Source: Mya arenaria
Taxonomy: Eukaryota; Mollusca; Bivalvia; Myida; Myidae
Direction: 5' to 3'
DNA length: 64,000 nt
NCBI RefSeq assembly: GCF_026914265.1
Contig: NC_069135.1
Location: forward strand, 1,319,001 to 1,383,000
The notes beneath the pieces were generated by a model that saw nothing but the letters and a program-made list of their open reading frames with translations, made no database searches and had not been told where the DNA came from. Positions 21,621 through 64,000 of this stretch are shown piece by piece (the stretch's first letter is position 1; every line of letters starts with the position of its first letter). Made by a program: the position numbers and the translations under genes.

Positions 21621-24600
21621 TCATCTTTTTTCCAGCACAAAATAGTCATGTGGGTCACCGATATCATTATCACGAAGACCAATTTCCGTACTGCCCATTG
21701 CACCGTTCTTTTCAAGCACAAAATATTGGTGAGATCCGCTGGGATCAGTGTGCTCCTGGCTCCGTAAATCACCGTCATCCCTAACAGCGGGTATCTGATT
21801 GTATCCCGCATTCTGGCTTCTGTCCGCGTTCAGTGGCTGGTAGGCGCTATCTGCGACTGTCGAAATGCTCGTGCCCGGTATGACGTCATTGGCGAACTTA
21901 TTGTATCCGTATGTCGGTGAAGTCACTGGAGCAAGTGACGAGTTGTTGTTGGCGTGATTGTAGCCGGGTGCATTATATGTGTTTGTGCTACCGACCGATA
22001 GATCCATCGACTCGCTGTAAATATGCTGGGAGTCAGGTCGGACACAGTTGGCATTTTGCGCTGTTGTGGGTGTTGACCGGATGTCAGCAGGCAGAGTAGC
22101 GAGCGGCGCAGACGGCATGGGTCGGGATTTTTGCGCTGTGGCATTCTATAAAAATAAATACGAAACATTAAATGAAAAATTATAATTTCAAGATAACCAT
22201 CAAAGTAATATCTAGGAAAATTGTTTGACACTGACTCCCTACCCATTTGGTGGATTGTTTCGACCATTTCCTGGCCTTTGACTTTTCTTTACTTGAGGTT
22301 GAGGTTTAACCCGCGTGTGTACACTCTTGCGCATGTACGTGCAATAAAAGCAATTTCGAAAATAAATACAGTTTTTAGTATCTATCTTCCGGGCAAATAT
22401 ACCGCATGTAATCGCAATGTATGCTCACCACGATTTCTCCATCTTCCATATTCGCGCGGCCTGTTTCCTTCGTGCCTGACCTAACGGCGTATGCCTTACT
22501 GGAAAACAAAAAGTATGTAAAAACTGTTAGCAGTTAAGTTCCAGCATTGTAATTATTCCATATACATCCGAGGTTGTTTTCGATGAAAAATGGTCGAGGT
22601 GTTCCGAATGTTTTCACACTATGTTATTCTCATGCCATTGGACGAATTGAATGAAAAACAAATGGAACAGACGCCATTCAATATAAAACTATACATTGAG
22701 GCTATGGCTATTAAATGAAAAAAAAAAATAATACGGGAATGGGAAAATGCACATCGGCTACGTGAAACAATAATGTCTGATTAACTCACGCATATACGGA
22801 GGGACAGCAGACGCAAAGAGCCGCGGTTGCCATGGCCCCCACCATCAACCCGATCAAAAGGAGCCCCACGGCCGCCCCGACACTCACACCCGATCCTTCG
22901 TGGAGGGCCGCACAGTCCTGAGGCGGACAGTCCTGGTGTGGATAACCCTTAGCATTCTTCTGCTCTGACTGAGAACCTGCGTAATGATGTTAGTGCCTAT
23001 TTATTCAACATATTGAAATAACATCGAAGTTTATAATTCGAGATGCAACATCAAAACAATGCGAAATATGTAGGTTATTATTTATTTGGAGGTTTTTATG
23101 GAAATTAAGCGTTCAAGCGTAGCACAGCTAGGGGTGCAATTGAATGATAAAATAATAGTTGAAATCAATTGTATATACTGACAGGAACGCCTGTTTTGAA
23201 TGATATTTTTTGCCCCCTACCTCTGAAATATGAACACATAAATGTATGTTCTTTTCCAGCATGTTATTTTCAGTTTTGTCTAGTTAATTACCTATAATTA
23301 CCTATACAAATACTTCAAAGACAAAATCTGAGCATATATCAGCATTTATTGAAGGGTTCCAGTCGACAGTATCTTAGTTTTAACACTCTTAGTGATTTGT
23401 CGCACTAAACTTCGAAATAAAAAAATCCGTAAACAGTGCATTTAGCAAACCATGAACCATTGAAACTGTGTAAAATAGTTCCTTGTGAAGCTATGTCGAG
23501 TCTGGTTGTTGAAGCTTGTTATTAACTCAAGTAGGAAAAGGCTTCCTTAAATCAGGAACTACTCGATTAAAATACAATAGCGGTACAATAAATCTCATCT
23601 GTATAAATAACAGAACAGCCACAGATCCCTGTCACCTTTTGTAATGTATTAGCCAATTACCATCATCAGCTCGAGTTGTCGTAGTTGTGGTGTCCGCTGG
23701 CTGGGATTTTGCAGATCTTTCTTTATCGTATGTTGTGCAGTCTCTCGCAAAACATTGGTTTCCGTGCTACAATCACATTACACGAGTATAGACGGTCGAA
23801 AGTGTTAAAGTTGTCTAAAGGCATATATATATAAGTTGCTCTTGAATGATATAAAAATGCTAAAGAAAGAACACCGACAGAGAGAATCCGTTTTGTTGCT
23901 TTAAATTCGTACACTTCTTTTACGTTACACGAATTTATCATAGTAAATGGGACAATACATGCTACCATTCTTGTGAATCACAATTAATAGCACTGAACTA
24001 CTTAAGTACTAACAGAAATCGTACACACCTTCATACAGTATTTCTGACAGATGTCGTTGTTGGTGTTTCTGTCCGGTGTAAGGCACGGTAATTGGGCTGA
24101 AAGTACTATCATGGTTTAAATTCATAGTATCGTGATATTAAGTAATGTACAGAAATATGAAATATTGTGGAAATTAGTGTTCAATAATAACGATCTATTC
24201 GTACCTCGTTGAATTATAAAATGAGTCTTCTTTCGACCGCTAAGACGCTTCCGCCGAGCGAAGCGAGCGATCCCTTCTTAGCAACTACGATTTCATAAAA
24301 TAGCATTAGAACTGTACAATGTTTGGTTGTTATGGCTTGCATCTGAAATTTAATTTATAACAGACGTTGATGTCGTTTGATACTTTCTTCAAGGCGAACT
24401 TACATCTTCCGTATGTGTTTTGTGTTTCGAAGCATATCGTGGTACAGGCTTTCCTGCAAAATGAAGCACAGTTTGCATTGGTATTTGACTGAACTGAGCA
24501 TTCAACAGTGTACAAACAGTAATGTACATGTACTGTAATAGGGAGCCGTGTTTACTATTCATGCCCCATCACACGTTCCCACTACGTCCTCAAAAATCTG

Positions 24601-27600: not shown

Positions 27601-27642
27601 AGACTTACCTATCGTCCGCATCGTCGCTTTCAGGTTGGGCTG

Positions 27643-27684: not shown

Positions 27685-29217
27685 GTATGCATGTTTCAAT
27701 GAGATATCACTTATCATGTTTCCGAACAGGAAAGAGAAATATGTATTGAATACATTGGCATGCTAATAACTTTGAATGAACAATATATAGTAAGAGCAGT
27801 ATTCTTATGAAAAGAGACTTGCTCATGTTCTGTAAAATGCACTTCTTTTTGTGACGAAATAAAGATTCATTAAGATTCTGACCGCTAGAACACTTTAGGA
27901 AATTTTATACTCGTTCAAATATCGTCCTGTAAGACCACAGTTTTCAAAAGCGTTACTAACGGAATTCAGCGATTCGTTGTAGCGTGATTTGCTCATCATC
28001 ACGTGATAAATGTTATTCTTAAAATGCCAAAATATCTACCTTCTGTTGTAAAAGTCCATGCGCCGTAATTGTTTAAAGGTTTAATTGTTTTCTGAAATTT
28101 CGGTTTCATAGAGTAAAATGGTGCTTTCAGATGCATTACCAAGAAAACTAATATCTGATCCAAAAACATGAGCGAGTCCCTTTAAAACTATACAGCAAGT
28201 CTAATAACTTCGGGGGTTATTCGTTAAACTGATATTGTCACAGTTTGAAACAGCGCAATATCATGTTGTTGTTTTTTCACTAATAGATCTCTTAACTATC
28301 GGACAGCATATAAATGTATTTAGACTGGTGTAAACTGCCACGTTATACATGGAATTGATCAAAATGGCAAATGCAATGCAAATCGTCCCAGGTTATAGGA
28401 TTTACACACAGAGAAGATGATAACAGTGATAAGAAATGGGAATAATTGTCACAAAAGGTAAACGGCATTGACCGGAACAAGTAATGACTTGTATAGTTCA
28501 GTATTTTAAAGTGATGTACAATCCGTAAATACAATACTATGACAATAATATGAAACCTAAATATTTGAAGTTCACGTAGCGTTTCCATACACTTCCTGTC
28601 CCTTGGTTGAAACAAGCGCGCGAGGATTTCTGATCTTATCAAGCAACATTCGGAACTCCTCGGCCATTTTTATCGAAAACAACCTCGGATGTATTTGGAC
28701 GGTTTACATACTCAAAAAGAGGTACGTTTAAGTCCGCTGCAAGTAGATCGCGTAGTAATTTTATTTAGCAGTTAAACTTTATGACTTTACTCTTGGAAAT
28801 CTCAATTATGTTCGCAATAATATACTTCACTGACAATCAATTTAAACTTAGATCAATAAATACAATTCTAAAACACTTCATTTCATAAATGATATAATTC
28901 AAAAATTTACGAACTACTTCAACTGATGTACCGGCATACATCCGAGGTTGTTTTCGATAACAATGGCCGAGGAGCTCCGAATGATCAAGCAATTGTAAAT
29001 CCATATGATCCATTATTTAAATAATATCATAGTTTAAACTTGAAATATAACGGCTCGTATTATGTGTATATTCATTGAAATACATTAACGATACTCTTCG
29101 TAACGAACATGCATCAAAGTTATAACCGTAACAAAAAAGCGTATATAAATACATACCTTTTGAAATTAACAAACAAATGCCCATTAGAATGGCCATGGTG
29201 TACATTTTAAAACTCAT
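21621..29217 (-). CDS. Paralog A: single-pass receptor-like protein with tyrosine-rich, twin-YFVLEK tail
   Basis: Eight exons: 29217-29157, 27639-27609, 24453-24404, 24096-24029, 23766-23661, 22976-22790, 22498-22429 and 22145-21621. All borders are AG/GT and phases join, giving 365 residues. Residues 1-20 are a signal peptide (MSFKMYTMAILMGICLLISK). The ectodomain holds seven cysteines (KACTTIC, LPC, DICQKYC, QCFARDC), then a TTTTTT linker and HQDCPPQDC. The membrane span is about 135-159, followed by CVCC, a plausible palmitoylation site. The tail (about 165-365) has nine tyrosines (234, 248, 253, 270, 272, 293, 306, 332, 359), including AYQPL and two YFVLEK motifs 27 residues apart (Y332, Y359). 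I do not recognise the family. The design suggests a type I signalling or endocytic receptor at the cell surface. The start is the first ATG before a hydrophobic stretch and matches paralog B. Confidence 0.87.
22561..22606 (+). repeat. Solo arm of CATCCGAGGTTG MITE
   Basis: ACATCCGAGGTTGTTTTCGA and the following GGTCGAGGTGTTCCGAATG match one arm of the element at 28645-28985. It lies in gene A intron 7-6. Confidence 0.55.
23362..23475 (+). repeat. Short dispersed repeat, copy in gene A intron
   Basis: It matches 8585-8695 (TATCTTAGTTTTAACACT and GCAAACCATGAAC). Gene B carries related inverted and direct pieces in the corresponding intron (45357-45800), so an ancestral copy may predate the gene duplication. 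Confidence 0.5.
24563..25307. repeat. ACGT-rich element with CCCCATCACAC terminal inverted repeat
   Basis: CCCCATCACAC at 24564-24574 is matched by GTGTGATGGGG at 25296-25306. The interior is full of short diverged GGACGTGA-, AAGAACGTGG- and TTACCACGTCC-like motifs that change orientation across the middle, so it has a weak foldback character. No coding is seen. It lies in gene A intron 2. The family is not recognised. Confidence 0.5.
25620..26260 (-). repeat. 39-bp minisatellite in gene A intron 2
   Basis: About 14 good copies (25711-26245) and diverged copies to the left. The unit reads CGTACCATAACATTGACAAC then GTAACCGGATGACAGCATC. The 39-bp length is a multiple of three, so three minus-strand frames stay open for up to 235 codons; these are not genes. 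Related copies lie at 26755-27045, and a related array lies in the same intron of gene B. Confidence 0.92.
26755..27045 (-). repeat. Second block of the 39-bp minisatellite
   Basis: About seven units of GTACCATAACATTGACAACG then CAACCAGATGACAGCGTCT. It is the same family as the block at 25620-26260 with its own fixed differences (CAACCAGAT, GCGTCT), so each block has homogenised separately. Confidence 0.9.
27645..27681. repeat. (AT)n microsatellite abutting a 3' splice site
   Basis: A near-pure AT run of about 37 bp begins five bases from the acceptor of gene A exon 2 (minus strand), so it sits where the polypyrimidine tract should be. Gene B has no such expansion at the matching acceptor. 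Confidence 0.9.
28645..28985. mobile_element. MITE with CATTCGGA/CATCCGAGG inverted arms
   Basis: The left arm (28645-28693) carries ATTCGGAACTCCTCGGCCA, ATCGAAAACAACCTCGGATG. The right arm (28936-28985) is its inverse with few differences. The interior of about 240 bp is A+T-rich and non-coding. It lies in gene A intron 1. A solo arm occurs at 22561. Confidence 0.6.
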
Positions 29218-37602: not shown

Positions 37603-37741
37603 TATTTTTTCTATTTCCAAGCAATTGTTAATGCGTTTTTTTTTTAAACAATGATAAATCAAGGTTTTTTATTCATATAGTTACATAGCGGCCTTAAATT
37701 GTTATCTATTCAGAAAGCTGTGTGAAGTTAGCTAAACATAC

Positions 37742-39990: not shown

Positions 39991-41105
39991 TAAGGTCCAA
40001 TGTCCAATATCGTGCTAGCACGACTTTCACTTTTGAATGTCCAATGTCCAATGTCGTGCCAGCACAACATTCGATTATGAATGTCCAATGTCCAATGTCA
40101 TGCTAGCACGACTTTCACTTTTGAATGTCCAATGTCCAATGTCGTGCCAGCACAACATTCGATTTTGAATGTCCAATGTCCAATGTCGTGCTAGCACGAC
40201 TTTCACTTTTGAATGTCCAATGTCGTGCCAGCACAACATTCGATTTTGAATGTCCAATGTCGTGCTAGCACGACTTTCACTTTTGAATGTCCAATGTCCA
40301 ATGTCGTGCCAGCACAACATTCGATTTTGAATGTCCAATGTCTAATGTCGTGCTAGCACGACTTTCACTTTTGAATGTCCAATGTCGTGCCAGTACAACA
40401 TTCGATTTTTATGTCCAATGTCCAATGTCGTGCTAGCACGACTTTCACTTTTGAATGCCCAATGTCTAATGTCGTGCCAGCACAACATTCGATTTTGAAT
40501 GTCAAATGTCCAATGTCGTGCTAGCACGACTTTCACTTTTGAATGTCCAATGTCCAATGTCGTGCCAGCACAACATTCGATTTTGAATGTCCAATGTCGT
40601 GCTAGCACGACTTTCACTTTTGAATGTCCAATGTCGTGCCAGCACGACTTTCACTTTTGAATGTCCAATGTCCAATGTCGTGCCAGCACAACATTCGATT
40701 TTGAATGTCCAATGTCCAGCTAGCACGACTTTCACTTTTGAATGTCCAATGTCCAATGTCGTGCCAGCACAACATTCGATTTTGAATGTCCAATGTCCAA
40801 TGTCGTGCTAGCACGACTTTCACTTTTGAATGTCCAATGTCCAATGTCGTGCCAGCACAACATTCGATTTTGAATGTCCAATGTCCAATGTCGTGCTAGC
40901 ACGACTTTCACTTTTGAATGTCCAATGTCCAATGTCGTGCCAGCACAACATTCGATTTTGAATGTCCAATGTCGTGCTAGCACAACATTCGATTTTGAAT
41001 GTCCAATGTCCAATGTCGTGCCAGCACAACATTCGATTTTGAATGTCCAATGTCCAATGTCGTGCCAGCACAACATTCGATTTTGAATGTCCAATGTCCA
41101 ATGTC
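39991..41105 (-). repeat. 44-bp satellite array, right (inverted)
   Basis: About 25 units of the same 44-bp family as 37742-39250, in inverse orientation; several units have lost one ATTGGACATTGG half. Together with the left array it can form a hairpin over 1 kb long. Confidence 0.95.
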
Positions 41106-41137
41106 GTATGTTTAGCTAACTTCACACAGCTTATTCA

Positions 41138-43164: not shown

Positions 43165-46100
43165 TCACTTTTTCTCCAGCACAAAATAGTCATGTGGAAC
43201 ACCGATATCATTATCACGAAGACCAGTTTCCGTACTGCCCATTGCAGCTTCCTTTTCCAGCACAAAATACTGGTGAGCTCCACTGGGATCAGTGTGCTCC
43301 TGACTCCGTAAATCACCGTCATTCCTAACTCCGGGGATCTGACTGTATTCCGCACTCTGGCTTCTGTTGGCGTTCAGTGGCTGGTAGGCGCTTTCTGCGA
43401 CTTTCGAAGAGCTGGTGCCCGGTATGACGTCATTGGCGAGCCTATTGTATCCGTATGTCGGTGACTTCACCTGGTCATTTCGGAGTTGTGACGAGTTGGT
43501 GTTGGTGTGGTCGTAGCCGTACGCATCATATGAGTTTGTGTTGCCGACTGATGGATCCATCGACTCGCTGTAAATATGCTGGGAGTCAGGTCGGCCACTG
43601 TTGGCATTTTGTACTGTTGTGGCTGTTAACCGGATGTCAGCAGGCTGTAAAGGAAGCGGCGCCGACGGCATGGGTCGGGATTTCTGCTCACTGGCATTCT
43701 AAATAGGAAAAATGTTACATGAAACATGTTTACATGTACTGACACCATTGATTTATATTTACAAGTAAAGTATATACATGTGTCATATGGAGGAGTGCCG
43801 TTCAAGAAGTCTTCATTTTATAACTTTTAAATTTTTCGACTTATTTTGATAAATTTTAGACAGAATAAACACCGTCATGTTCTTTATTGCCTAGATTAAG
43901 CAAAACCGGACTGATTCTTTGTAAGATGTTATAAAACATACATGTACAAAAGTTGTCTCCTTAAACCTAGGTGGTATACTAGTATAATCACCGAAGGATA
44001 TTATATACCGAATGATAATCTTCAAAGAATCAGTGGTAGAAGGGTCAGTCATAAAGTTCCCGGACTGTCCTAATAAAATTCGCTTTTTTTTGTTCCATCG
44101 TATTTTCAGTGACGTGCGAAACAGGAGTTACTTGGAAAATAGACCGATTTGGTCACCGTGCTTTTCATATAATGATATTGTGTAGGTTTCAATTAAACAA
44201 TGACATTTTTATTACAAAAATTAAGAACATTAACAAGTGTAATGTTAAAGATTTAAAAAGTTGTTTCGCGTCATCACCATGCACCATATAACTGGACCCC
44301 CTATTACTGAAACACGTTTTAATAATTCCATGGAAGGTCGATCCACCAAATTGAAATCTTGTGTATGGAGAGGAGAATCCTTGACAAGTGTCATAATATC
44401 AGTATTTTGTTTAAATACACAAACTAAAACGGCTATGGAAAAGATCTAGGCGTTCTCGAACTGCCTTCAAATAGTGCAATGCAACATAATGGTTGTGCAA
44501 ACAGGATCGCTTTGAATTCTGACTGTTATTTTATATCCATGGAGGGATAATGTCATAATTTTGTATCTAATCAGGGATAACGTCCCTTTAATACGTTAGC
44601 ATCAAATGCATGTTCTGGATTTATGTATATATAGGTAGCTCATTTCACTACACACCATGATATGTTAATATCATGTTTCCATAAATGTACAAACGCCAAA
44701 GACTTCTAATCGAAACCAAAGCAACATATTTTCACAATGAATACATACCGAGATTATCTCATCTTTCAGATTGCCGCGACCGGGTTTTAGTTTGTCTAAG
44801 ATAGAAGACGCCTTCCTGAGAAAAAGGCAATATAATTCTATAATTATTTTACAGCAGTTCTCAATTTATAACTGGTGAAACCACACGAAAAGTTTATAAT
44901 CTGTGTATATCTCCGAGTGCATAATTCATGCTGTTGAAGAACTTTTAACAAATTAATAAGAAATTTAGTTTAACAGTAAATATTAAACCATGATACATAA
45001 AGAGTACCCTTTAACTGATGAACTCAAAAAAACTTTTCAGTTTTGTGGCTAAAATGTCAAGACCAACTTACGCGTAGATGGGGGGACAACAAACGCAGAT
45101 GACGGTGGTTACCATGGCTCCCAGGAACAGCCCGAGCATGAGGAGGCCTACTGCCGCCCCGACACTCACACCTGAACTGCTGCTGTGTGCCGTACAGTCC
45201 TGGGGTGGACAGTCCTTCGGTTTTTTCTGCTCTGCCTGGGATCCTGTTGATATACACAAGCGTCGTTTACTAGGTGATACACAAAATATGCAGCCATTTT
45301 GATTCAATACATTATTTGAATACAACTCTAGTACACGTATAATAGCTGACTGATGTAAAGGGACTCGCCTTTATTCTTGTAAAATGCATGTTTGTTTTGG
45401 TTTGATAAAACAACAATCATAAGGAGTGTTCAAACTAAAATACTGACGGCTGGAACCCTTCAACAAATGATGATATATGCTTAGATACTGTCTTTAAAAC
45501 ATAGGATTTCGAATAGCGTTAGTAAAGCGATTCGACAAAAGGCTTAAAGGTTAATTTATCCTGATGTTTGTGTATGATTCCTTGTGCGCGTTAGGTGATG
45601 TGGTGTAGGTGAAGTTTTGATTGACTACCGGCAAGGGTTCGCACCCCAATAAAACCAGAACAGTTTTGTTATACTTTAAGTGTATTTATTTTTGCACCTT
45701 CGGTATCAAAGAGTTAACTTATTATAACATAAGTGTATTCAGATGCATTATCGGGGAAAGAAAATTGGTACCAAAACATGAGCGAGTCCCTTTAAATAAA
45801 TAAACTTTTCAGAATGAGAGAGAGTTATGAAAAGTCAGGAATTGCCTATCATAGCATCTTGTTTGAAACCAAGAAAGGTACATAATTTTATCCATTTATT
45901 TCGAACGTTCATTACCTTCATAACTTGGAGTTGTGGATTTCTCTGGCTGGGGGGTATTTTCTCCAGCATTATTCTCTGTATTGTTGCACTTTACGACATA
46001 ACATTTCTCTGTGAACTACAATCATATTTACCATACATTTTGCATCAAATAAACCAAAATATTGAAAAAGTCTGAGAGAGTCCTTGAATGATTGAGATTG

Positions 46101-49100
46101 GTTGAGAAAAATAGGCAATTATTTCAAGTTGCTGTTTAATGTTTTTAAAGTTTGCCAAAACGTCTAATTAAGACTCAGAAACAAGAAAACAATGTATGAT
46201 GTTACGTTTTGGGTTTCCATAGTAGTAAGCGATGCCATGTTTGCTTACATGCTTTAGGTTTGCATTGCGAAACCATTGATATAAAACTGTAATTGAAAGG
46301 TAGAGGACTCCTACCTTTTGGCAGAACATTTGAAAATTATCGTCGTCGCAGTTCTGTCGTTCAAAGAACGCTAAAAAGAAGTATGTATTTCATTAATTAT
46401 TTAATTAAATAAAAAACAACAACACACAATGGCATTTGGTAAGTAATTGATCACATTCAGCAAAAACGGTCAAGGTCGTGCCTAAATTGAAATAAAGTAT
46501 TTCAATATGCACACCACATCGTTTTTCACATGTGTAGATACAGTACTGAAATCATTGAGATGGGTATCACTTTTTTCACTTAACAAAGAAATATGGAGGT
46601 ATCCAATTGCCTTTTTATTGTATATTTCGTCTTTCATGTTTGACTCAATGTTTTGCGAGATCAATTAACTCTAAATCATATGTATGCCTTTATGTTTTTT
46701 ACTTTCCAATAAGGAATACTTACAGCTACATAAACCTTCGCAGAATGTTTCTGTTATAGTCTCATGCACGTTTATTTCTAAGCATTTTGGGACTTCGTTG
46801 TTCCTGCGAATACACGTTTTGAAAGTTTGCATAGTTTGCATTTCTATGTAAAAGAACAAAATGTACTCAAATAAATAGTACTGTATATACGATTATACTG
46901 GCATAAGTCGAACAGTGATCAGGATGAAAATAAAAGCAAGCAATGATGCGGGAGTACCAATAGTACCATGGAACGTTGCAAGGAAAGTGGATGAAAACAC
47001 AGTACTATGGAACTTGGCACGGGAAAAGGATGACAGCAATAATGCCATGGAACTTGACAAGGAAACAGAATGAAAACAATGTACCATGGAACTGGATGAA
47101 TGCAATAGTACTATCATGGAACTTAGCAAAAAAACGGGATGAAGGCAATAGTACCATGAAACTTGGCAAGGAAACGGGATGAAGGCAATAGTACTATCAT
47201 GGAACTTAGCAAAAAAAACGGGATGAAGGCAATAGTACCATGAAACTGGGCAAGGAAACCGGATGAAGGCAATAGTACTATCATGGAACTTAGCAAAAAA
47301 AAACGGGATGAAGGCAATAGTACCATGAAACTTGGCAAGGAAGCGGGATGAAAACAATAAAAGCATGGAGCTTGGCAATAAAACGGGATGAAAACAATAA
47401 AAGCATGAAACTTGGCAATGAAACGGGATGACAGCAGTTATACCATGGATCTTGTCAATGAAACGGGATGACAGCAATAGTACCATGGAACTTAACAAGA
47501 AAACGATATTAAAGCAATAGCACCATGACATTTGGCATGGAAACTAAATGAAAGAATTAGTACCATGGAACTTGACAAGGAAAACGGGATGAAAACAATA
47601 GTATATGGAACGTGGCAAGGAAATTGAATACACACAATACCATGGAACTTGGCAGGGAACCGGGATCAAAGCAACCATGGAACTTGGCAAGGAAACGGGA
47701 TGAAAACAAGAGTACCATCCATTTTTGCAAGGAAACGAGATTAAAGCAATAGTGCCATGGAATCTGGCAAGGAAACGGGGCGCAAGCAACAGTACCATGG
47801 AGCTTGGCAAGTAAACGAGTTAAAACAATAGTACCATGGAACCTGGCAAGGAAACGAGTTAAAAACAATAGTACCATGGAACTTGGCAAGGAAACGAGGA
47901 GGGGGCAAAAGTGCCATGGCGGGATCAAAGAACTATAAACATGGTATTAGCATTATGCCTTTGGTAAGGAAACCAAATTAAAACAGCATGCCAAAAACAC
48001 CAGGAGGTGTAATATTGTTGTACGTTTTGGAATTCTTTTATTTGGTATATACGGGCATACTTCTCTTATCTTGGAGCAGAGTAAAATTGAAGTTTCTGTA
48101 AAAGTTTCACCAGTGCTAAAACATTTATATTAATTCTGTAAGAATAACATTTCAACGTTTTGTAGGAACTATTCTGAAAGTGTTGCTGGATAGTAACAGT
48201 GTTTATGTAGTGTGTTAAATATTTCATTTTGACTTAATTCCGTAAATGTACCAGGATTAGTGACGACTTTGAACATTATTCTTTATTGTGAGTATTATTT
48301 GAAGTTTATTTTGTTAAATTTTATGTAAGTAATTGTTGTTGTTGTTGTTGTTGTTGGTAGTGGTGATGGTGGTTTCAAAGAGTTATGTTGTTTGAAAATC
48401 GCTAGTTTCTCTTTCTCTGTTGCTTTTGTTGGTCGCAAAAACACAGCTAAAACATCTGAAAGATAATTACATGTGCAACTCAAACAATAACATACACGTA
48501 GTGCTAATAGAATGTGTTGATAAAAAAAGGTTTTCTCAATATTTCAAAATAAACTAACTCTAGAGCAAAAAATATACTCTCAAATTCATTTTTGGCTGAA
48601 GATTATCTTTCTTTTGGAATTTTGACCAAAAGCCTTAATCAACACATTTTATGATATAATACGCTTATAATAGATGTAAAAACATATAGGATTTTAACAT
48701 TTGAAGTTAAGTGGTAAAATGAGTTGAGACTGAGATTGAGATTTGACTTAAGTTTTTGTGATATTGGGGCCAGGTATCTGTGAAGTAACGAAACGATAGC
48801 ATCAGTACCATAACTCTTGTCAACGTAGATGACAACATCAAAACCAAAACTTTGGCAATGTAATGATATGACGGAACACCCACCAAAACTCGTATCAGAT
48901 GGGTTGTGTTATTCAGCAAGAATAGATTTAACACAGGGTAAAATTACTTGCAGTTTCAAGTGATTATTTTAAGAATCGTGAGTAATCAAAGTGATAATTT
49001 GAGAAATAATGAAATGTTAAATCTGAGATCGCAACTGGTAAAACAACTGATATTGCAAAACGGGCTCCAACACACAGTTTTTAACAGAAATGTAAATGGG

Positions 49101-50915
49101 TTGTTTATGGGGATTTAAAGGCGAGACAGATACATACCCATCCTTGGCTTCGCCTTTAGATTCGGCTGAAATATAAAATAGTTTTAATGATATACCACTT
49201 TGTTGTGTTTCCAAAAAAGAAAGAAAAAAAACATATTTTGTTTACATTGACATGATAATGATAATAAATAATCAGTAATCTACACTTATAATCTTAAAAC
49301 TATAAAGCAAATATTGGACGAAGTGTACTAATTTAATAGTTTATATTACATTTAATTTGACGATGGCATTAGAAAATACCTTGGAAACACATAGATGACA
49401 GTTCCTAAAGAAGCAGAGCATACTTAGCATAAATTATGACCCTGTTAATATAAACACGGATTCATGTTTCAATGGTAGGCATTATTTTCAGTACTTACAT
49501 TGTGTTATAGATATACAGAGAACATTTCGGGGTGAGAGTGGTCTAGTGGTAAAAAAATAAATATTAGCTTATAGGTGTCCTATGAGTACTTTCTCATGGT
49601 CTCTCAAAAAATGACACAGTACTGGTTTCTGCCAAGGAACGGACTCGAGAGTGATTCTATTAGCTGTCAGCTTTCGTCACAATCGAGATCAAATAAATAA
49701 GTATATACTAAAAGCATATAAAATCTGACAAATAACAGTATTTTGTGGATATTTCATTTAGATTTACCGGCCTAAAACAGACTGTCATATGAGAGAACAC
49801 ACACTGCTGTTAAGATAATATGTTTTCTAATTGTTGCCGTATTCATTTCCCTCTTCATTGTTGCTACTGTTCCTCTTTGCTAGGTCGTTTACACGAGATT
49901 GGAGAAACATGACACATCAAAATTACACAACATTGATAATGAGGTCGTTCATAACTTCCTTTTTCGTCTATTGTCTTGTGTATTAGGAATGGTGGAAAAT
50001 AAACATGTACTTAAATATGTTGATGTATAATATCATGTCAAATGCTATGAAATATAGCCAGTATAGAACTTGCCTGTGACGTGAAGTTTAGAGGATTTTA
50101 ATACATGCAGTGAATAAATTAAAAGTAATAAGGACATAAATGGGAATGTTTGTTACAAAAGGTAAAAGGCAATGATCGGACCAAGTCATTGCTCACGTAC
50201 GATGTTAAAATGTTTTCCTATGGCAATAACTCGAAGTGGACATTTAGAAGTCTACATAACGCTGCAATACTTGCTCAATTTGAAACCAGTGCACTAGGAT
50301 TTTCTCATCCTATCATATAATTGTAAACCCAAGCAACTCATTTATTTACTTTTGTCCGAGTTCAAACTTGAAATATAACTGCTCATATTCTATGTCCCAG
50401 TTATCTATTAATTTAAATATATTTACGATACAGTTTATTACGAACATGCATCACTCCTTTTCTGTTTTCTGCACTACACAATGTCTCCTTGTGTGTGTGT
50501 GCGTGCGTGCGTGCGTGCGTGCGTGCGTGTGTGTGTGATAATTATGATAATTATTGTGAATCATGCATCAAACATGTCCACATGACAATTCTGTTACCAC
50601 ATATAAATTCTTTTAAACAGAAGAGAGACTTAGAGAAAGCATTTATGCTTACTTCTCAATTCAGTAAAGATTTCTTTAATTGCTTTTTTGATATTTTATA
50701 CTTTAATTCTTATAAACACTATCATGATTACTTTGTATCTGTCAACTTGCTCAACGTGTGTTGAGAATTTATTTTATTATCAAAATAAAAGGTTAAACCA
50801 ACATACATCAATGCTATAACAATATCAAAATGAAGCATATATGTAAATACAAACCATTTGAAATCGACAAACAGATGCCCACTAGGATGGTGCTGATGCA
50901 CAGTTTGAAACTCAT
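43165..50915 (-). CDS. Paralog B: single-pass receptor-like protein with tyrosine-rich, twin-YFVLEK tail
   Basis: Eight exons: 50915-50855, 49165-49138, 46803-46724, 46370-46315, 46015-45916, 45243-45072, 44815-44749 and 43698-43165, all GT-AG with joining phases, giving 365 residues. The signal peptide is MSFKLCISTILVGICLSISN. The ectodomain has seven cysteines (PKC, TFCEGLC, QNC, MFCQK, KCYVVKC), an NNT glycosylation site and a CPPQDC stalk. The span GVSVGAAVGLLMLGLFLGAM lies at about 133-157, followed by CVCC. The tail begins KASSILDKLKPGR and continues with ten tyrosines, including AYQPL and Y332/Y359 in two YFVLEK motifs at the same positions as in A. By eye the last exon is about three quarters identical to A while the ectodomain keeps little beyond the cysteines. 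It has the same unknown function, and reading frames are intact. Confidence 0.87.
45350..45805. repeat. Two pieces of the GAGCGAGTCCCTTT dispersed repeat, facing each other
   Basis: AAAGGGACTCGCCTTTATTC at about 45357 and ACATGAGCGAGTCCCTTTAA at about 45778 are inverse ends, so this intron holds either one element with inverted ends or two opposed copies. Gene A carries a member in the corresponding intron (23362-23475). Confidence 0.5.
46940..47935 (-). repeat. ~39/40-bp minisatellite in gene B intron 2
   Basis: About 25 units of GTACCATGGAACTTGGCAAG then GAAACGGGATGAAAACAATA. Aligning it with the gene A unit (GTACCATAACATTGACAACG, TAACCGGATGACAGCATC) gives many identical positions, and both arrays lie between exons 2 and 3. 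A diverged remnant of the A type (GTACCATAACTCTTGTCAAC) is at 48795-48875. Open minus-strand frames here are artefacts. Confidence 0.9.
48332..48356. repeat. (GTT)n microsatellite
   Basis: About eight GTT triplets in gene B intron 2. Confidence 0.9.
48780..48880 (-). repeat. Diverged remnant of the 39-bp minisatellite, gene B intron 2
   Basis: It contains CGATAGCATCAGTACCATAA and GACAACATCAAAACC, closer to the gene A unit than to the main gene B array. It parallels the second block in gene A (26755-27045). Confidence 0.55.
50490..50537. repeat. (GT)n/(GTGC)n microsatellite
   Basis: A GT run passing into GCGT repeats and back, in gene B intron 1. Confidence 0.95.
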
Positions 50916-54892: not shown

Positions 54893-55195
54893 CGTCCGCC
54901 CGCTTAGCTCAATCGGTAGAGCGTTGGACTCTGAATTGGACAACCCGGGTTCGATTCCCGGGCGAAACAGGTCACCTCTGTTGTGATTGGTTATGAAATC
55001 CTTTCTACGACCATTCGCACTGTACCACTGCCCCTGGCATGTACAGAAGTTGTCGGTTCCTTGCAGAGGTGAAGGCACCTAGTACTGGTTCTGCCCGGGA
55101 TAGGTGTGTGGGGTTGAACTGTCACTCTGGGACCCTTCAATGTGCTCACGCCGGGACCCGGAGTATAAACTACTAACACCACTAAAGTTTAGGTT
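54893..55195 (+). mobile_element. tRNA-derived SINE (V-SINE/RUDI-like)
   Basis: The head has a pol III A box (TAGCTCAATCGG at 54905-54916) and a B box (GGTTCGATTCC at 54948-54958). The anticodon and acceptor stems do not pair, so it is not a working tRNA. A body of about 230 bp follows, with TGCCCCTGGCATGTACAGAA, CTTGCAGAGGTGAAGGCACC and GGTGTGTGGGGTTGAACTG. A conserved body of this kind is known from molluscan SINEs; the family name is a suggestion. The target-site duplication was not resolved. Confidence 0.75.
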
Positions 55196-55969
55196 TGCTC
55201 GCCGAATTGGTAAATAAGCTAAAAAAACAACAAACTTTAGGATGTGATAGAAAACAAACACTTGGAATTTGTTTGAGCTCGAAGGTAGTTTTACCACAGT
55301 CCAGCACCCGTTAGCGTTGTCGCTGTTTTACAATATAATTGATTCTTTTTTTTGGACTGTGATAATACATCAAGTATTTGTTAAGGAAAGAACAACAAAA
55401 TAAAATCGTGAAAAGAACTTGGTTTCGTGAAACGGATTTTGTTTTGAACTTTTAAAGTTAATTCCCCAATGGAGCCAAGTAACGGTTTATAGTATAAAAA
55501 ACGCACGGCACAATACTAGAAAATAAAACAAAATCTTGAGAAAATATTTGGGAAATAAAATTATCACACGTCAGACAATATCACAGACAAATAATATATT
55601 CTCTAGTCAATTAGACTATATTTCATTTTCTTATTAATTGATACCCCCTCTTTAACTGGGCAAACGATATTTGAGTGAAAACAGCATCAATTCTTAGCTT
55701 TGATACTCGCAAGACGTCGTTGGCTTTTAGCTTTTTTATTTACGGCACATTGTAAACCATTATAATCAAATTCTACAAAGGATTTAATTTCATTGCATGA
55801 TACTCTACAGGGCAAACATATGTTCTACAAGAACCATAACGTTGTGACCAGTTGTTATCAAATTTCATACCGTGATATGAACAAAATGTTTTAGCAATCT
55901 TTATTGATATAAAATAAACGTTGACCTATTGCTTTATAGCATAAGACTTATAGCCGAATGATGACCTCA
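55196..55969. other. Intergenic, nothing recognised
   Basis: A+T-rich sequence up to the start of satellite array 2; no exon seen. Confidence 0.4.
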
Positions 55970-58900
55970 TACCCAGTGTCGCACATATACACATTCCTCG
56001 GGCATGACGGTAACCGAGCACCCTATACCCAGTGTCGCACATATACACATTCCTTGGTCATGGCGGTAACAGAGCTCACTATACGCAGTGTCGCACATAT
56101 ACTTTTTCCTCGGTCATGACGGTAACCGAGCTCCCTATACCTAGTGTCGCACATATACAATTTCCTCGGTCATGACGGAAACCGAGCTCCCTATACATGG
56201 TCGCACATTTACACTTTCCTCGGTCATGACGGCAACCGAGGTCCCTATACCCAGTGTCGCACATGTACACATTCCTCGGTCATGACGGTAACCAAGCTCC
56301 CTATACCCAGTGTCACAAATATACACATTCCTCGGTCATGACGGTAACCGAGCTCCCTATACCCAGTGTCACACATATACACATTCCTCGGTCATGACGG
56401 TAACCGAGCTCCCTATACCCAGTGTCACACATATACACATTCCTCGGTCATGACGGTAACCGAGCTTCCTATACCTAGTGTCGCACATGTACACATTCCT
56501 CGGCCATGGCAGTAACCGAGCTCCCTATACGCAGTGTCGCACATATACCTTTTCCTCGGTCATGACGGTAACCGAGCTCCCTATACCTAGTGTCGCACAT
56601 ATACACTTTCCCCTGTCATGACGGTAACCGAGCTCCCTATACCCAGTGTCGCACATATACACATTCCTCGGTCATGGCGGTAACAGGGCTCCCAATACCC
56701 AGTGTCGCACATGTACACATTCCTCGGTCATGACGGTAACCGAGCTCCCTATACCCAGGGTCGCACATATACACATTCCTCGGCCATGACGGTAACCGAG
56801 CTCCCTATACATGGTCGCACATTTACACTTTCCTCGGTCATGACGGAAACCGAGGTCCCTATAACCAGTGTCGAACATGTACACTTTCATCGGTCATGAT
56901 GGTAACAGAGCTCCCTATACCCACTGTCACACATATACACATTCCTCGGTCATGACGGTAACCGAGCTTCCTATACCCAGTGTCTCACATATACACTTTC
57001 CTCGGTCATGACGGTAACCGAGCTCCCTATACCCAGTGTCGCACATCTACATATACCTTGGTTATGACGGTAACCGAGCTCCCTATACCCAGTGTCGCAC
57101 ATGTACACATTCCTCGGTCATGACGGTAACCGAGCTCCCTATACCCAGTGTCGCACAGATACACATTCCTCTGTCATGACGGTCACCGAGCTCCTTATAC
57201 TCTGTGTCGCACATATACTCATTCCTCGGTTATGACGGTAACCGAGCTCCCTATACCCAGTGTCGCACATTTACACATTCCTCGCTCATGTCTGTAACCG
57301 AGCTCCCTATACCAAGTGTCGCACATATACACATTCCTCGGTCGTGGCGGTAACCGAGCTCCCTATACCCAGTGTCGCACATATACTTTTTCCTCGATCA
57401 TGACGGAAACCGGGCTCCCTATACCCAGTGTCGCACATATACACATTCCTTGGTCATGGCGGTAACAGAGCTCCCTATACCCAGTGTCGCACATATACAT
57501 ATTCCTCGTTCATGTCGGTAACCGAGCTCCCTATACCCAGTGTCGTAAATATACACTTTCCTCGGTCATGACGGAAACCGAGCTCCCTATACATGGTCGC
57601 TCATTTACACGTTCCTCGGTCATCACCGCAACCGAGCTCCCTATACCAAGTGTCGCACATCTACACATTCCTCGGTCATGACGGTAACCGAGCTTCCTAT
57701 ACCCAGTGTCGCACATGTACACATTCCTCGGTCATGACGGTAACCGAGTTCCCTATACGCAGTGTCACACATATACATTCATCGGTTATGACGGTAACCG
57801 AGCTCCATATACCAAGTGTCGCACATATACACATTTCTCGGTCATGGCGGTAACCGAGCTCCCTATACGCAGTGTCGCACATATATACATTCCTCGGTCA
57901 TGGCGGTAACCGAGCTCCCTATTCCCAGTGTCGCACATGTACACTTTCCTCGGTTATGACGGTAACCGAGCTCCCTATACCCAGTGTCGCACATATACAC
58001 ATTCCTCGTTCATGACGGTAACCGAGCACCCTATACCCAGTGTCGCACATATACACATTCCTTGGTCATGGCGGTAATCGAGCTCACTATACGCAGTGTC
58101 GCACATATACTTTTTCCTCGGGCATGACGGTAATCAAGCTCCCTATACCTAGTGTCGCACATATACACTTTCCTCGGTCATGACGGAAACCGAGCTCCCT
58201 AAACATGGTCGCACATTTACACTTTCATCGGTCATGACGGCAACCCAGGTCCCTATACCCAGTGTCGCACATGTACACATTCCTCGGTCATGATGGTAAC
58301 CGAGCTCCCTATACCCAGTGTCACATATATACACATTCCTCGGTCATGTCGGTAACCGAGCTTCCTATACCAAGTGTCGGACATATACACATTCCTCGGT
58401 CATGGCGGTAACCGAGCTCCCTATATATGGTCGCACATTTACACTTTCCTCGGTCATGACGGCAACCGAGCTCCCTATACCCAGTGTCGCACATATACAC
58501 ATTCCTCGGTCATGGCGGTAACAGAGCTCCCTATACCAAGTGTCGCACATATACATATTCCTCGGTCATGTCGGTAACCGAGCTCCCTATACCCGGTGTC
58601 GTAAATATACACTTTCCTCGGTCATGACGGTAACCGAGCTCCCTATACAGTGTCGCACATGTACACTTTCCTCGGTCATGACGGAAACCGAGATCCCTAT
58701 ACATGGTCGCACATTTACACTTTCCTCGGTCATGACGGCAACCGAACTCCCTATACCAAGTGTCGCACATGTACACATTCCTCGGTCATGACGGTAACCG
58801 AGCTTCCTATACCCAGTGTCGCACATGTACACATTCCTCGGTCACGACGGTAACCGAGCTCCCTATACCCAGGGTCGCACATATACACATTCCTCGGCCA

Positions 58901-60236
58901 TGACGGTAACCGAGCTCCCCATGCGCAGTGTCGCACATATACACATTCCTCGGTTATGACGGTAACCGAGCTCCATATACCAAGTGTCGCACATATACAC
59001 ATTTCTCGGTCATGGCGGTAACCGAGCTCCCTATACCCAATGTCGCACATATACACATTCCTCGGTCATGGCGGTAACTGAGTTCCCTATTCCCAGTGTC
59101 GCACATCTACACTTTCCACGGTCATGACGGTAACCGAGCTCCCTATACCCAGTGTCGCACATATACACTTTCCTCGGTCATGACGGTAACCGAGCTCCCT
59201 ATATTCAGTGTCATACATCTACAAATACCTCGGTCATGACGGTAACCGACGTCCCTTTACCCAGTGTCGCACATGTACACATTCCTCGGTCATGACGGTA
59301 ACCGAGCTCCCTATACCCAGGGTCGCACATATTCACATTCCTCGGTCATAACGGTAACCGAGCTCCCCATGCGCAAAGTCGCACTTATACACATTCCTCG
59401 GTTATGACGGTAACCGAGCTCCATATACCAAGTGTCGCACATATACACATTTCTCGGTCATGGCGGCAACCGAGCTCCCTATACCCAGTGTCGCACATAT
59501 ACATATTCCTCGGTCATGGCGGTAACCGAGCTCCCTATTCCCAGTGTCGCACATCTACACTTTCCTCGGTCATGACGGTAACCGAGCTCCCTATACCCAG
59601 TGTAGCACATATACACTTTCCTTGGTCATGACGGTAACCGAGCTCCCTTTATCCAGTTTCGCACATCTACAAATACCTCGGTCATGACGGTAACCGAGGT
59701 CCCTATACCCAGTGTCGCACATTACACATTCCTCGGTCATGACGGCAACCGAGCTCCCTATACCCAGTGTCGCACATATGCACACTCCTCGGTCTTGACG
59801 GTTACCGAGCTCCCTATACCCAGTGTGGTACATATACACACTCCTCGGTCATGACGGTAACAGAGCTCCCTATACCCAATGTAGCACATATACACATTCC
59901 TCGGTCATGACGGTTACCGATTCCCCTTCATCCAGTGTCGAGCATATACAAATTTCTCAGTTGTGGCGGTAACCGAGCTCCCTATACCCAGTGTCGAAAA
60001 AATACACATTTGTCGGTCATGGTGGTAGCCGAGCTCCCTTTAGCCAGTGTCGCACATATACACATTCCTCGGTCATGACGGTAACCGAGCTCTCTATACC
60101 CAGTGTCGCATATATACACATTCCTCGGTTATGGCGGTAACCGAGCTCCATTTACCAAGTGTCGCACATATACACATTCCTCGATCATGGCGGTAACGGA
60201 GCTCCCTAAACCCACTGTAGCACGTATACACATTCC
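55970..60236 (+). repeat. 56-bp satellite array 2, main block
   Basis: About 76 copies of the same 56-bp unit and orientation as array 1. It includes a variant with a small deletion (CTATACATGGTCGCACATTT). A run with the same order of variants is found about 2008 bp apart (around 56101 and 58109; around 56192 and 58199), so about 36 units form a higher-order repeat. Confidence 0.95.
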
Positions 60237-60237
60237 T

Positions 60238-60800
60238 GACTTCATTTTTGAGTTCATTTGCTACAACCATTTGCGGTTTCTTTTCTGGGGACTGTTTACG
60301 GTAAAGAACACCATCAACTAAGGACAGATTTTACCAGATAATATCATAGTGCCTTGCTGCCGGGCTCTTAAACGCAATCTCTTTTTTATTTGGTTGCCGC
60401 GCCTCTAGCATCCCAGTGTAAACCAGTTTAAGATCACTGTCGCGGGATTGCATGTTGGCGATATCTGCAGCTTGGTAATCATCTAACCAATTGCAAACAG
60501 CTGTGGGTTTTGATGGTTCGGTGGATGATGTTGACGGCTTTTCAGCATCGACCGCTCTGACCACCAATACAGCGTCTTGGTCACCAACATCTGGGTGTTC
60601 AACAGTTTGGGCCTTTCCGGAAACGAATGATTTCTGGACATTGATCTCTTCACCTCTGACTGGAAATGGCGGCTCTAAACGCATAATTTCCACCGTCGTT
60701 GGCACTTTGAGCATGGACCGCATTTAAGTGGCTCGTCGGTGTCAACTGCGTCGCACGTGCAGTCGCTGGGAACGGGACATCTTGACAACGCGTCACAATG
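60238..60800 (-). mobile_element. Decayed fragment of a Ty3/gypsy-like LTR retrotransposon (pol)
   Basis: Minus-strand sequence resembles the linker between RNase H and integrase of Ty3/gypsy pol (HCDALSRCPVPSDC-like start, SRDSDLKLVYTGMLEARQP, SLVDGVLYRK). It is a broken fossil fragment only, without LTRs or the rest of pol, and interrupts satellite array 2. It is an old insertion or a captured piece. Confidence 0.7.
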
Positions 60801-60881
60801 ACCTTGAAGATGTAAATAACACTAACAATTTAACTTTAAATCAATGTATTTTGTGTCCAAAGATCTGGGCACAACAATACC

Positions 60882-61395
60882 AAGTGTCGCAATATACACA
60901 TTCCTCGGTCATGGCGGTAACGGAGCTCCCTAAACCCAGTGTAGCACGTATACACATTCTTCGGTTATGGTGGTAACCGAGCTCCCCATACCCACTGCCG
61001 CACATATACACATTCCTCGGTCATGGCGGTAACGGAGCTCCCTTAACCCAGTGTCGCACATACACGCATTCCTCGGTCATGGCGGTAACGGAGCTCCTTA
61101 ACCCAGTGTAGCACGTATACACATTCCTCGTTCTTGACGGTAACCGAGCTCCTTATACCCAGTGTCGCACATATTCACATTCCACGGTCATGACGATAAC
61201 CGAGCTCCCTATACCCAGTGTAGCATATATTCATATTCCTCGGTCATGACGGTAACCAAGCTCCCTATACCCAGTGTCGCACATAAACACACCCCTCGGT
61301 CATGACGGTTACCGAGCTCCCTATACACAGGGTCGCACATAAACACATCCCTCGGTCATGGCGGTAACCGAGCTCCCTATACCCAGTGTCGCAAA
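60882..61395 (+). repeat. 56-bp satellite array 2, right block
   Basis: About nine further 56-bp units, resumed after the retrotransposon fragment, ending about 300 bp from the gene C poly(A) signal. The units next to the fragment on both sides share GGTAACGGAGCTCCCTAAAC and TGTAGCACGTATACAC, so the array was split by the insertion. Confidence 0.9.
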
Positions 61396-61692
61396 TATGC
61401 TCGTTTTTCGATTTAGCCTTCTGTTATGAGTTGAAAGGATTGGTATTAAGTCGGCTGGTTTTGATTGTTACCTTGATGTATTGTTTCATTCCCCAACGGC
61501 ATTTATTGTTGCGCACCCAAGTCTCTTAAGTTTCCTTTACAAGGCAAGGTGGATTGCAAAGATCTCGCATAAATTATAATCATGACGTTAAATTTAACAT
61601 TTAAAATGCAAGTGGATAAAATCAAACAAAACACGTAACATAAAACATGACGGTCAACTCGTATTTTTGAACGAAAAAGAACAAAACTGAAA

Positions 61693-61931: not shown

Positions 61932-64000
61932 TCATTTTTTCTCCAGCACAAAATAATCATGTGGAACACTGGTGTCATTATCACGATGACAAGTTTCCGT
62001 ACTGTCCATTTCAGCGTCCTTCTTTTCCAGCACAAAATACTGGTGAGCTCCACCGGGATCGTTGTGCTCCTGGCTCCGTAAATCGCCGTCATCCTTTACA
62101 GCGGGTATCTGGTTGTATCCCGCATTCTGGCTTCTGTCGGCGTTCAGTGTCTGGTAGGCGCCACCTACGATTTTCGAAGAACTCGTGCTCGGTATGACGT
62201 CATTAGTGAGCTTGTTGTATCCGTATGTCGGTGATGTCACTGGAGCAAGTGACGAATTGGTGTTGGCATGATCGTAGCCGTACGCATTATACGTGTTTGT
62301 GCTGCCGACAGGTAGATCCATCGACTCGCTGTATATGTGTTGGGAGGCTGGTCGGCCACTGTTGGCATTTTGCGCTGTTGTAGCTGTTGCCCGGATGTCA
62401 GCAGGTAGGGAAGGGAGCGGCGCCAACGGAAGGGGTCGGGATTTCTGCTCGTTAGCATTCTAAATAAATTTAATAAAATTCCGTTAATAAAACCATAATT
62501 ACAAGATAAGCATCAAAGTTAATTCTGAGAAACCGGTTTGCCAGTGACTCCCTACAGGTCTATTTGTTGATTTGAGTACCAATCTACTACCAAAGGCTAC
62601 CCAACGTGTTTGTACCTGTATCAGTTCAAAGGAACATCCACTATGTATTTGTATTAAAAAATGCACATGCGATCACAATGTATGCTCACCGAGATTTCAT
62701 CATCTTCCAGATTTTCGTCGGAGCAGGTTTTCTTCTTGCCTGTCCTTACGGCTGATGCCTTTCTGAAAAAAAAAAACAATCCGAATGTATATTTAAAAAT
62801 AGATCTTCAGCAGTTCATTTCCTTCCTGATTACAGATAATATCGAAACCCTTTAAAACTGAGCACAGGACTCCAATTGAATAATGCGTATGCTATTGGGG
62901 GATTATATACAAGAACAAATTACAAACGAGCCATTAAATATAAACCATACATTGAAGCTATGGCCTATTATATGAAATATACAACAAACACAGATACTAC
63001 GGGAATAAGAAAATGTAGCCCATCAGATACTTAAAACAAAGATGTCGGATCAACTCACGCATGGACGGAGGGACAGCAGACGCAGAGAGCGGCGGTTGCC
63101 ACGGCTCCAAAGAACAGCCCGAGTACGAGGATCCCTAAGGCCGCCCCGACACTCACACCCGAGATTTCGCGTAGGGTCGTACAATCCTTTGGCGGACAGT
63201 CCAGTGCTGGACAGTCCTTAGGCTTCTTCTGTTCCGAAGGATTTCCTGCGTTAAAGTGTAATTTTATTGCAACATAACGAAAAAATATTAAAGTTTAAAA
63301 TTGAAGATACAATACAATGTCATTGTATAAGTTATTTTATTTTTGGAGGTCTTTATGGATATTAAACATACAGGCCTGGTGCGGCTTGGTTAAAGTTTAT
63401 TTTTCATAAAGACCTCTAGATAAAGGCTTAATTATAATGGTTGAAATCTTCTTTGTTTACTGACAAGGCACTCCCCTTTTAACACAAAATGTGTTCACCC
63501 CCTACCGTTGAACTATGTACCCGTAAGAGTCTGAGACAATATGAATACATTTATGTGTGCTTTGTTAATTCAACGTGTCTAGTTTTCCACATATTGTTTC
63601 CAGCATTGTTACATTGAAATAAGTTGCAATTGAAACTTATTTCAGATTAAAATTTACTACCGCATTTAAGATAGAGTTGTTGTTGTTGTTCGTTTTTTTT
63701 CTATATTTGAAAGTCGAATATTTAAAAAAAACACTGCCGTTCCATTAATTCAAAATATTTTAAACCATTAAAAGTGTGTAAATTAGCTCCCTTTGAAGCA
63801 AATTCGACCTTGGCTTTTAAAATTATTTTTACTCACATAAGAAAAGCCTGTGTCAAATCAGGGACAACCTAATTATAGATATCATAGATCACCTGATAGA
63901 GGTTAAAAACATCATTTTTATAAAGTCCGTGAAATGATATACAACACAACAGCCAAAGATCACCTATACGTTTAGAGCTTTACCTTCATCAGTTGGAGCT
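61932..64000 (-). CDS. Paralog C: receptor-like protein with twin-YFVLEK tail, 5' part beyond window
   Basis: Visible exons are 64000-63984 (partial; ends APTDEG-like), 63245-63059, 62762-62690 and 62459-61932, with the same phases as exons 5-8 of A and B. The stalk has an added copy of the cysteine motif (CPALDCPPKDC). The span reads GVSVGAALGILVLGLFFGAV, followed by CVCC. Exon 7 encodes KASAVRTGKKKTCSDENLED. The tail keeps HIYSESMDL, TYGYNKL, GAYQTLNADRSQ, GYNQIP and two YFVLEK motifs, and the last exon encodes 175 residues. The frame is intact. The signal peptide and cysteine-rich exons lie beyond the right edge. Role as for A and B. Confidence 0.85.

Follow-up and report, generated by a model that had tools for sequence, protein, structure and literature searches.

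Gene structure and predicted products

The window analyzed here is a 64,000-base stretch of the soft-shell clam, Mya arenaria (C14:1319001-1383000, where C14 is contig NC_069135.1), and its minus strand carries part of a tandem cluster of paralogous genes. Judged from sequence, the predicted products are best called tyrosine-motif single-pass receptors, with an ectodomain that is unrecognized by the libraries searched. Gene models were assembled one exon at a time, guided by conserved blocks and splice sites, and feature positions, including those parts of gene C that lie outside the window, are given in window numbering (Table 1). Gene A (29217-21621) and gene B (50915-43165) are each predicted to encode 365 residues in eight exons, with C-terminal tyrosines at Tyr332 and Tyr359. 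Gene C, also of eight exons, is predicted to encode 363 residues (Tyr329 and Tyr357); all of its exons 1-4 and the greater part of exon 5 lie past base 64000. All three have ag at every internal acceptor and gt at every donor, and their exon start phases (0, 1, 2, 1, 0, 1, 2, 0) are identical. No alignment between A and B could be made for five of the seven introns (3-7), yet exon number and phases are unchanged in A, B, and C. Because the phases are conserved despite unalignable introns, and because the ratio of nonsynonymous to synonymous divergence (dN/dS) in the tail is 0.34-0.56 (ten pairs among the five members with open frames), there is a good, if indirect, case that A, B, and C are real genes.

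The five open models (A, B, C, and two further copies, E and F) each have a hydrophobic N-terminus (residues 1-19) and one hydrophobic span, located between residues 138 and 162 and ending in CVC. In A, B, and C the predicted ectodomain has 109-113 residues, among them 9 cysteines that correspond in position only in part. Exon 8 encodes 9 tyrosines in A and 10 in both B and C, while the counts after the membrane span are 11, 11, and 10, respectively. A preliminary description, made from the letters of this DNA alone, had proposed three minus-strand paralogs with a signal peptide, a Cys-rich ectodomain, a single span with CVCC, and a tail of 9-10 tyrosines; it had also proposed eight-exon models and two full members of equal length with Tyr332 and Tyr359. 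The rebuilt models bear all of this out, save that of the three paralogs placed in the stretch only A and B are complete within it. Its observations are thus confirmed and its interpretation partly supported; that the family was found in a single cluster only, that part of the family has fast-diverging ectodomain exons, and that exon 8 seems to have been exchanged were not part of it.

Table 1. Predicted exons and motifs of genes A, B, and C (window numbering)
Gene	Exon and feature	Position	Strand	Basis or motifs
A	1, signal peptide MSFKMYTMAILMGICLLISK	29157..29217	-	hydrophobic residues 1-19
A	2, ectodomain	27609..27639	-	ag/gt sites, start phase 1
A	3, Cys-rich ectodomain	24404..24453	-	start phase 2
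A	4, Cys-rich ectodomain	24029..24096	-	start phase 1
A	5, Cys pair and Thr-rich stalk	23661..23766	-	start phase 0
A	6, DCPPQDC stalk, membrane span, CVCC (22804-22815)	22790..22976	-	motif, splice sites, hydrophobicity
A	7, juxtamembrane	22429..22498	-	splice-site model
A	8, tyrosine tail	21621..22145	-	AYQPL 21831-21845, GYNQIP 21789-21806, YFVLEK 21708-21725 and 21627-21644
B	1, signal peptide	50855..50915	-	splice-site model, hydrophobic start
B	2	49138..49165	-	splice-site model
B	3, Cys-rich	46724..46803	-	conserved block, splice sites
B	4, Cys-rich	46315..46370	-	conserved block, splice sites
B	5	45916..46015	-	conserved block, splice sites
B	6, stalk, membrane span, CVCC (45086-45097)	45072..45243	-	motif, splice sites
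B	7	44749..44815	-	conserved block, splice sites
B	8, tail	43165..43698	-	AYQPL 43375-43389, EYSQIP 43333-43350, YFVLEK 43252-43269 and 43171-43188
C	1-4	71386-71446, 67400-67439, 64659-64711, 64410-64450 (outside window)	-	flanking DNA
C	5 (whole 63984-64092; 17 bases in window)	63984..64000	-	flanking DNA
C	6, stalk, membrane span, CVCC (63073-63084)	63059..63245	-	motif, splice sites
C	7	62690..62762	-	splice-site model
C	8, tail	61932..62459	-	AYQTL 62145-62159, GYNQIP 62103-62120, YFVLEK 62022-62039 and 61938-61955

Extent of the family

Genome-wide searches covered an assembly of 1,216,080,610 bases in 18 contigs. The tail exon was found in seven copies (A to G), all between C14:1340624 and 1468283 (128 kb), of which five are open and two broken, and no tail-exon match was found outside this cluster in the whole genome at E<=10. 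The earlier proposal of a tandem family of receptor-like single-pass genes is supported, with seven tail copies lying within 128 kb of one chromosome. The open models of A, B, C, E, and F have 365, 365, 363, 350, and 357 residues, respectively. Copy D has a stop inside the tail, and no leader exon was found for it. Copy G lies on the plus strand, and its reading frame is broken where exon 8 begins; in the 7 kb ahead of its span exon, none of ten candidate exons was recognized as a family exon. The sequence just 5' of exon 1 appears similar by eye in A, B, C, E, and F, with A and B sharing 72.7% over 450 columns that cover exon 1 and its 5' flank.

A search with the membrane-span exon recovered the same seven copies and two weak places, both on C14. 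The first (L050, C14:11131905-11132075) resembles the family's span exon weakly (E 0.119); the exon phases around it agree with those of the family by eye, and downstream lies a 359-residue tyrosine-bearing tail frame that contains HDYFVL. This candidate distant relative remains a lead only, because the score of its tail against that of C was reached by 35 of 200 shuffles. The second (L051) matched at E 0.57.

Additional leader-exon copies occur beyond the cluster at C14:1489877 (plus strand, with an exon 2) and C14:1497344 (minus strand). They face each other, and no tail of their own was found; paired matches at C14:1485423 (plus) and 1501854 (minus) suggest an inverted repeat of about 16 kb around them. 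Minisatellite arrays with a 56-base unit lie 3' of A and C (window 16110-20844 and 55969-61398) and also 3' of D, E, and F, with none 3' of B. Because they recur behind these five copies, the array seems to be part of the duplicated unit.

Tyrosine motifs of the tail

The tails of A, B, and C end in two copies of YFVLEK, with 23-24 residues between the motifs. Their tyrosines lie 27 residues apart in A and B, as the preliminary description had stated, and 28 apart in C, where that figure does not hold. AYQPL or AYQTL and GYNQIP or EYSQIP are located upstream on the minus strand, as it had reported. It was also right that the twin pair, with its gap of 23-24, does not have the spacing of an immunoreceptor tyrosine-based activation motif (ITAM); it had overlooked, however, that the upstream pair (YQPL-x9-YNQI) has a broad form of this spacing. 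All five open members match YxxL/I-x(6-12)-YxxL/I, a pattern picked while the data were being viewed, as YQ[PT]L-x9-Y[NS]Q[IL] just upstream of the twin, and such a match arises in 0.3-3.7% of shuffled tails. ITAMs typically have an acidic residue shortly before the first tyrosine. Inspected by eye in the alignment, Asp or Glu is at position -3 of the first ITAM-like tyrosine in A, B, E, and F, and not in C.

The tails of A, B, C, and F each contain four or five YxxL/I motifs. Their observed Yxx[LI] count was reached in 0.05-0.8% of shuffles (4.2% for E), and a repeated identical hexamer, as found in the same four, appeared in 0.08-0.2% of shuffles of their tails. Runs that are invariant among A, B, C, F, and G include SQHIYSESMD, SPTYGYN, DGDLRSQEH, HQYFVLEK, and YFVLEK. 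NPxY is absent from the tails of all five open members; PPxY is absent from four, and B has one (PPIY) beside the membrane. As a genome-wide feature, the YFVLEK codon pattern was rejected, being no commoner (586) than its reversed control (604), and so was the HDYFVL codon pattern as a widespread feature (73 versus 61 for the reversed control).

These motifs could also be read in terms of trafficking, with the YxxPhi motifs (YQPL/YQTL, YNQI/YSQI, YFVL twice, and YNKL/F) acting as AP-2 sorting signals; the proteins would then be receptors for endocytic uptake or adaptors of the endosome. Five YxxPhi motifs are present in each of A, B, C, and F, and three in E, and the count in the former four was reached in 0.7-2.6% of shuffles. 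The usual AP-2 motif is, moreover, an unphosphorylated YxxPhi. On the other hand, YxxPhi is a weak motif, and AP-2 is not known to require two sites 27 residues apart. We regard a purely trafficking function as possible, though not probable.

An inhibitory receptor, in which the paired C-terminal tyrosines would dock a phosphatase of the SHP-2/Corkscrew type through its two SH2 domains, overlaps with the signaling reading that we prefer. The spacing of 27-28 resembles that of the tyrosines (about 23-25) in receptors with paired immunoreceptor tyrosine-based inhibitory and switch motifs (ITIM and ITSM), for example PECAM-1 and PD-1. Four of the five open members (A, B, E, and F) match the ITIM pattern [SILV]xYxx[LIV] at SAYQPL, and an SH2-SH2-phosphatase layout is present in the genome (see below). 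However, neither YFVLEK copy fits the ITIM, because His rather than Ser, Ile, Val, or Leu is at position -2, and C has no ITIM at its YQTL. An inhibitory role appears unlikely to us.

Divergence of the ectodomain and apparent exchange of exon 8

Bootstrap limits for dN/dS were obtained for six of the ten pairs with 400 replicates, the ectodomain ratio coming from only 314 of these for A-B and 130 for B-C; ectodomain dS is saturated in B-C, B-E, and B-F, which therefore give no ratio. In the tail, the upper limit is below 1 in four of the six pairs (A-C 0.21-0.61, B-C 0.20-0.51, C-E 0.25-0.77, and E-F 0.30-0.85) and reaches 1.01 in A-B and 1.07 in C-F. The ectodomain ratio is 1.89 (1.02-4.11) in C-F, 1.27 (0.60-2.95) in C-E, and 1.18 (0.72-2.11) in E-F.

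Exons were compared with introns in the pairs C-E, C-F, and E-F, plus C-D for exons 3-5; A and B stand outside these comparisons, since their introns 4-6 are not alignable to each other or to those of C. Exons 2-4, a grouping made after the numbers were seen, diverge more than introns 3-4 in C-E (33/131 versus 79/500, p 0.015), C-F (39/128 versus 62/462, p 1.7e-5), and E-F (47/134 versus 101/625, p 2e-6). With exon 5 included, the difference from introns 3-4 has p 6e-4 in C-F and 3e-4 in E-F; against introns 3-5, exons 2-5 give p 1.4e-4 (C-E), 3.6e-4 (C-F), and 4.6e-4 (E-F). Exons 6-8, set against introns 5-7, are higher in C-E (97/755 versus 107/1193), lower in C-F (71/764 versus 134/906), and no different in E-F (95/731 versus 143/893). 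These data are suggestive of diversifying selection on the ectodomain in part of the family, namely the C/E/F triad.

The history of exon 8 appears to differ from that of the rest of the gene. In exons 3-7, A was nearest to B in none of 500 bootstraps (distances A-B 0.37, A-C 0.28), and likewise in none of 500 for exons 6-7. In exon 8, A was nearest to B in 456 of 500 (A-B 0.12, A-C 0.146). Past the exon 8 border into the intron, the likeness of A and B is lost in no more than 3 bases, and intron 7 is not alignable. The simplest account appears to be that exon 8 was exchanged between copies A and B by gene conversion or recombination.

A decaying family would offer a different explanation, in which the tandem copies are mostly relaxed and the tails are alike through exchange rather than function. 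Two of the seven copies (D and G) are broken, and the tyrosine columns of the tail are not significantly more invariant than the others (8/10 versus 67/123, p 0.19, from the aligned tails of A, B, C, F, and G, with E and D left out). In addition, the cysteine counts of E and F are reduced and E is without the twin tyrosines. Against decay stand the tail dN/dS limits of A-C and B-C, the fully open frames and intact splice sites of A, B, and C, and the consideration that relaxation alone would not make exons outpace introns in divergence. Decay as the general explanation is improbable in our view.

Proposed signaling and points against it

The reading that we favor, to which we give about even chances, is that the tandem family encodes type I cell-surface receptors, each crossing the membrane once and passing its signal to SH2 proteins. 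(The probabilities attached to the several readings overlap and need not sum to one.) Phosphotyrosine signaling is proposed because of the analogy with the tail of Draper: Src42a phosphorylates that tail, the tandem-SH2 kinase Shark reads it, and Corkscrew resets it (PMC8092387). The analysis shows the gene models, their topology, the number of copies found, the motifs, and the pattern of divergence; that the genes are expressed and that their products reach the cell surface, bind ligands, become palmitoylated and phosphorylated, engage partners, and serve immunity is inferred. The Cys-rich ectodomain of about 110 residues would bind variable ligands, and the CVCC at the end of the single helix is likely to be a site of palmitoylation. 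Clustering by ligand could lead a Src-type kinase to phosphorylate the tail, which is mostly encoded by exon 8. The ITAM-like pair (Y293/Y306 in A, YxxL-x9-YxxI) could then recruit a tandem-SH2 protein, while the C-terminal twin YFVLEK (27-28 apart) may provide another pair of docking sites, perhaps bound by an SHP-type phosphatase, or serve as YxxPhi endocytic signals, or both. Under this proposal, the ectodomains would diversify and the tail would be kept alike by constraint and by exon 8 exchange.

Potential partners are encoded in the genome, in which SH2 domains have 81 matches at E<=0.01. At C9:63174070-63188858 (plus strand), three SH2 exon matches, forming two domains, are followed by a tyrosine phosphatase match, which is an SHP-type layout. 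Many SH2 matches are paired, with equal or nearly equal scores, about 0.8-2 Mb apart on one contig (C2, C4, C8, C9, C13, and C15); such pairs, for example at C13:11.08 and 12.11 Mb, may represent duplications of large size or haplotypes that the assembly left unmerged. Tyrosine phosphatase (PF00102) has dozens of matches clustered on C3, C6, and C10, some with stops, among the 150 of 1858 candidates that were scored, and these clusters suggest a large expansion with broken copies.

Several observations weigh against the proposal. The strict ITAM, YxxL/I-x(6-8)-YxxL/I, occurs in none of the five open members, and the broader spacing was chosen with the data in view. E retains the upstream ITAM-like pair, but neither of the twin tyrosines is left in it (HHDFVLKKK and HDSFVLEKK), and the tyrosine columns do not stand out significantly, as noted above. 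Ectodomain cysteines number 8 in E and 5 in F, versus 9 in A, B, and C. As for selection, the four pairs that include A have an ectodomain dN/dS of 0.43-0.74, the comparison of exons 2-5 with introns 3-4 is not significant in C-E (p 0.23), and the grouping of exons 2-4 was likewise retrospective. Between C and the broken D, the fraction of differing sites is 4/94 for exons 3-4 and 16/106 for exon 5, with 54/446 for introns 3-4. If exon 8 was exchanged, the likeness of the tails is partly due to exchange and not all to selection or constraint. With D and G broken and E and F altered as described, some of the signal could be decay.

No adaptive receptor system is known in bivalves, and soft-shell clams face both parasites and contagious cancer cells. 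A bolder interpretation is that the cluster is a bivalve non-self recognition locus, in which diversifying, miniature Cys-rich ectodomains are joined to a common tail with an ITAM and the twin YFVL, its likeness among copies maintained by exon 8 exchange, and which would act in the recognition of parasites, pathogens, or grafts, possibly including transmissible cancer cells. In this full form the idea is speculative and quite unlikely to be correct. Nonetheless, a compact seven-copy cluster that combines ectodomains evolving fast in part with a shared phosphotyrosine-type tail is a candidate recognition locus, and even plain uptake receptors would still constitute a family unnamed in the libraries searched.

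Other features of the window

Two 44-base minisatellite arrays in opposite orientation lie between A and B (window 37740-39223 and 39995-41107). ARAGORN calls a tRNA-Gln (ctg) at window 54896-54991 (plus strand), where Rfam has a tRNA match of 36.3 bits (54901-54965); this may be a tRNA gene or a tRNA-derived element.

Comparison with known families

The family was matched to no described one in the libraries searched, in agreement with the preliminary description, which had recognized none. In Pfam (five members, E<=5), five weak families were returned, and every match with a shown score fell below its cut-off. There was no match at E<=1 in NCBIfam, a library built for prokaryote annotation, and a profile of the five models had none in the PDB at E<=1. 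Searched singly, the ectodomain of A had 4 PDB matches and that of B had 1 (E 0.18-1.6); these look like chance, and a known PDB fold was rejected. A literature search over titles and the starts of abstracts, which left most subscription journals uncovered, yielded no such bivalve family among the papers listed, and YFVLE-type motif strings were not found in the literature under the same limit of coverage.

With PECAM-1 and PD-1 the clam proteins share twin YxxL-type tyrosines some 25 residues apart. They differ in having no immunoglobulin domain among their Pfam matches and His at position -2 of the twin motifs.

The best of the weak Pfam families was CYYR1 (PF10873), which was matched by two of the five members. 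The top score, from the membrane segment of C, was 24.1 bits where the cut-off is 31, and in C the match covers the stalk, span, and CVCC. CYYR1 is defined with three successive PPxY motifs (PMC11399591). A divergent membrane adaptor of CYYR1/Shisa type, binding WW-domain ubiquitin ligases, would share with the clam family the weakly similar membrane segment and the general plan of signal peptide, Cys-rich part, one span, and Tyr-rich tail. In contrast, the family's score is sub-threshold and confined in C to the segment just named, PPxY is absent from four of five members, and a genome-wide search for CYYR1 (E<=1) found eight places, none in the cluster, of which one is above the cut-off and has PPPTY in frame. 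A CYYR1/Shisa-like identity was rejected on these grounds and is very improbable.

Draper and MEGF10 have ITAM-type tails that work with Src-type kinases and Shark/Syk, and with Corkscrew in the case of Draper (PMC8092387). The clam proteins are likewise single-pass and carry ITAM-like tails. Unlike Draper, MEGF10, and CED-1, they have an ectodomain of only about 110 residues and no NPxY, and EMI or EGF-like repeats had no Pfam match in any of the five members at E<=5. Membership in the Draper/MEGF10/CED-1 group was rejected on this basis.

Nearest in kind, as far as they can be likened by description, are the polymorphic transmembrane clusters GRC, PTC1, and PTC2 of snails, which are marked by hyperdivergent haplotypes that go with infection outcome. 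In them, short single-pass genes are linked to schistosome resistance (PMC7494358; the clusters are also treated in PMC10875847). PTC2 genes have 166-530 codons and are divergent, the membrane span is their sole known domain, and PMC7494358 reports for them no homology outside gastropods. The clam cluster follows the same plan, with seven tail copies in 128 kb, open models of 350-365 residues, and no Pfam domain over the shown cut-off. In both cases a molluscan cluster of short single-pass genes is found; what sets the clam cluster apart from GRC and PTC is a tail that is shared among the copies and rich in tyrosine.

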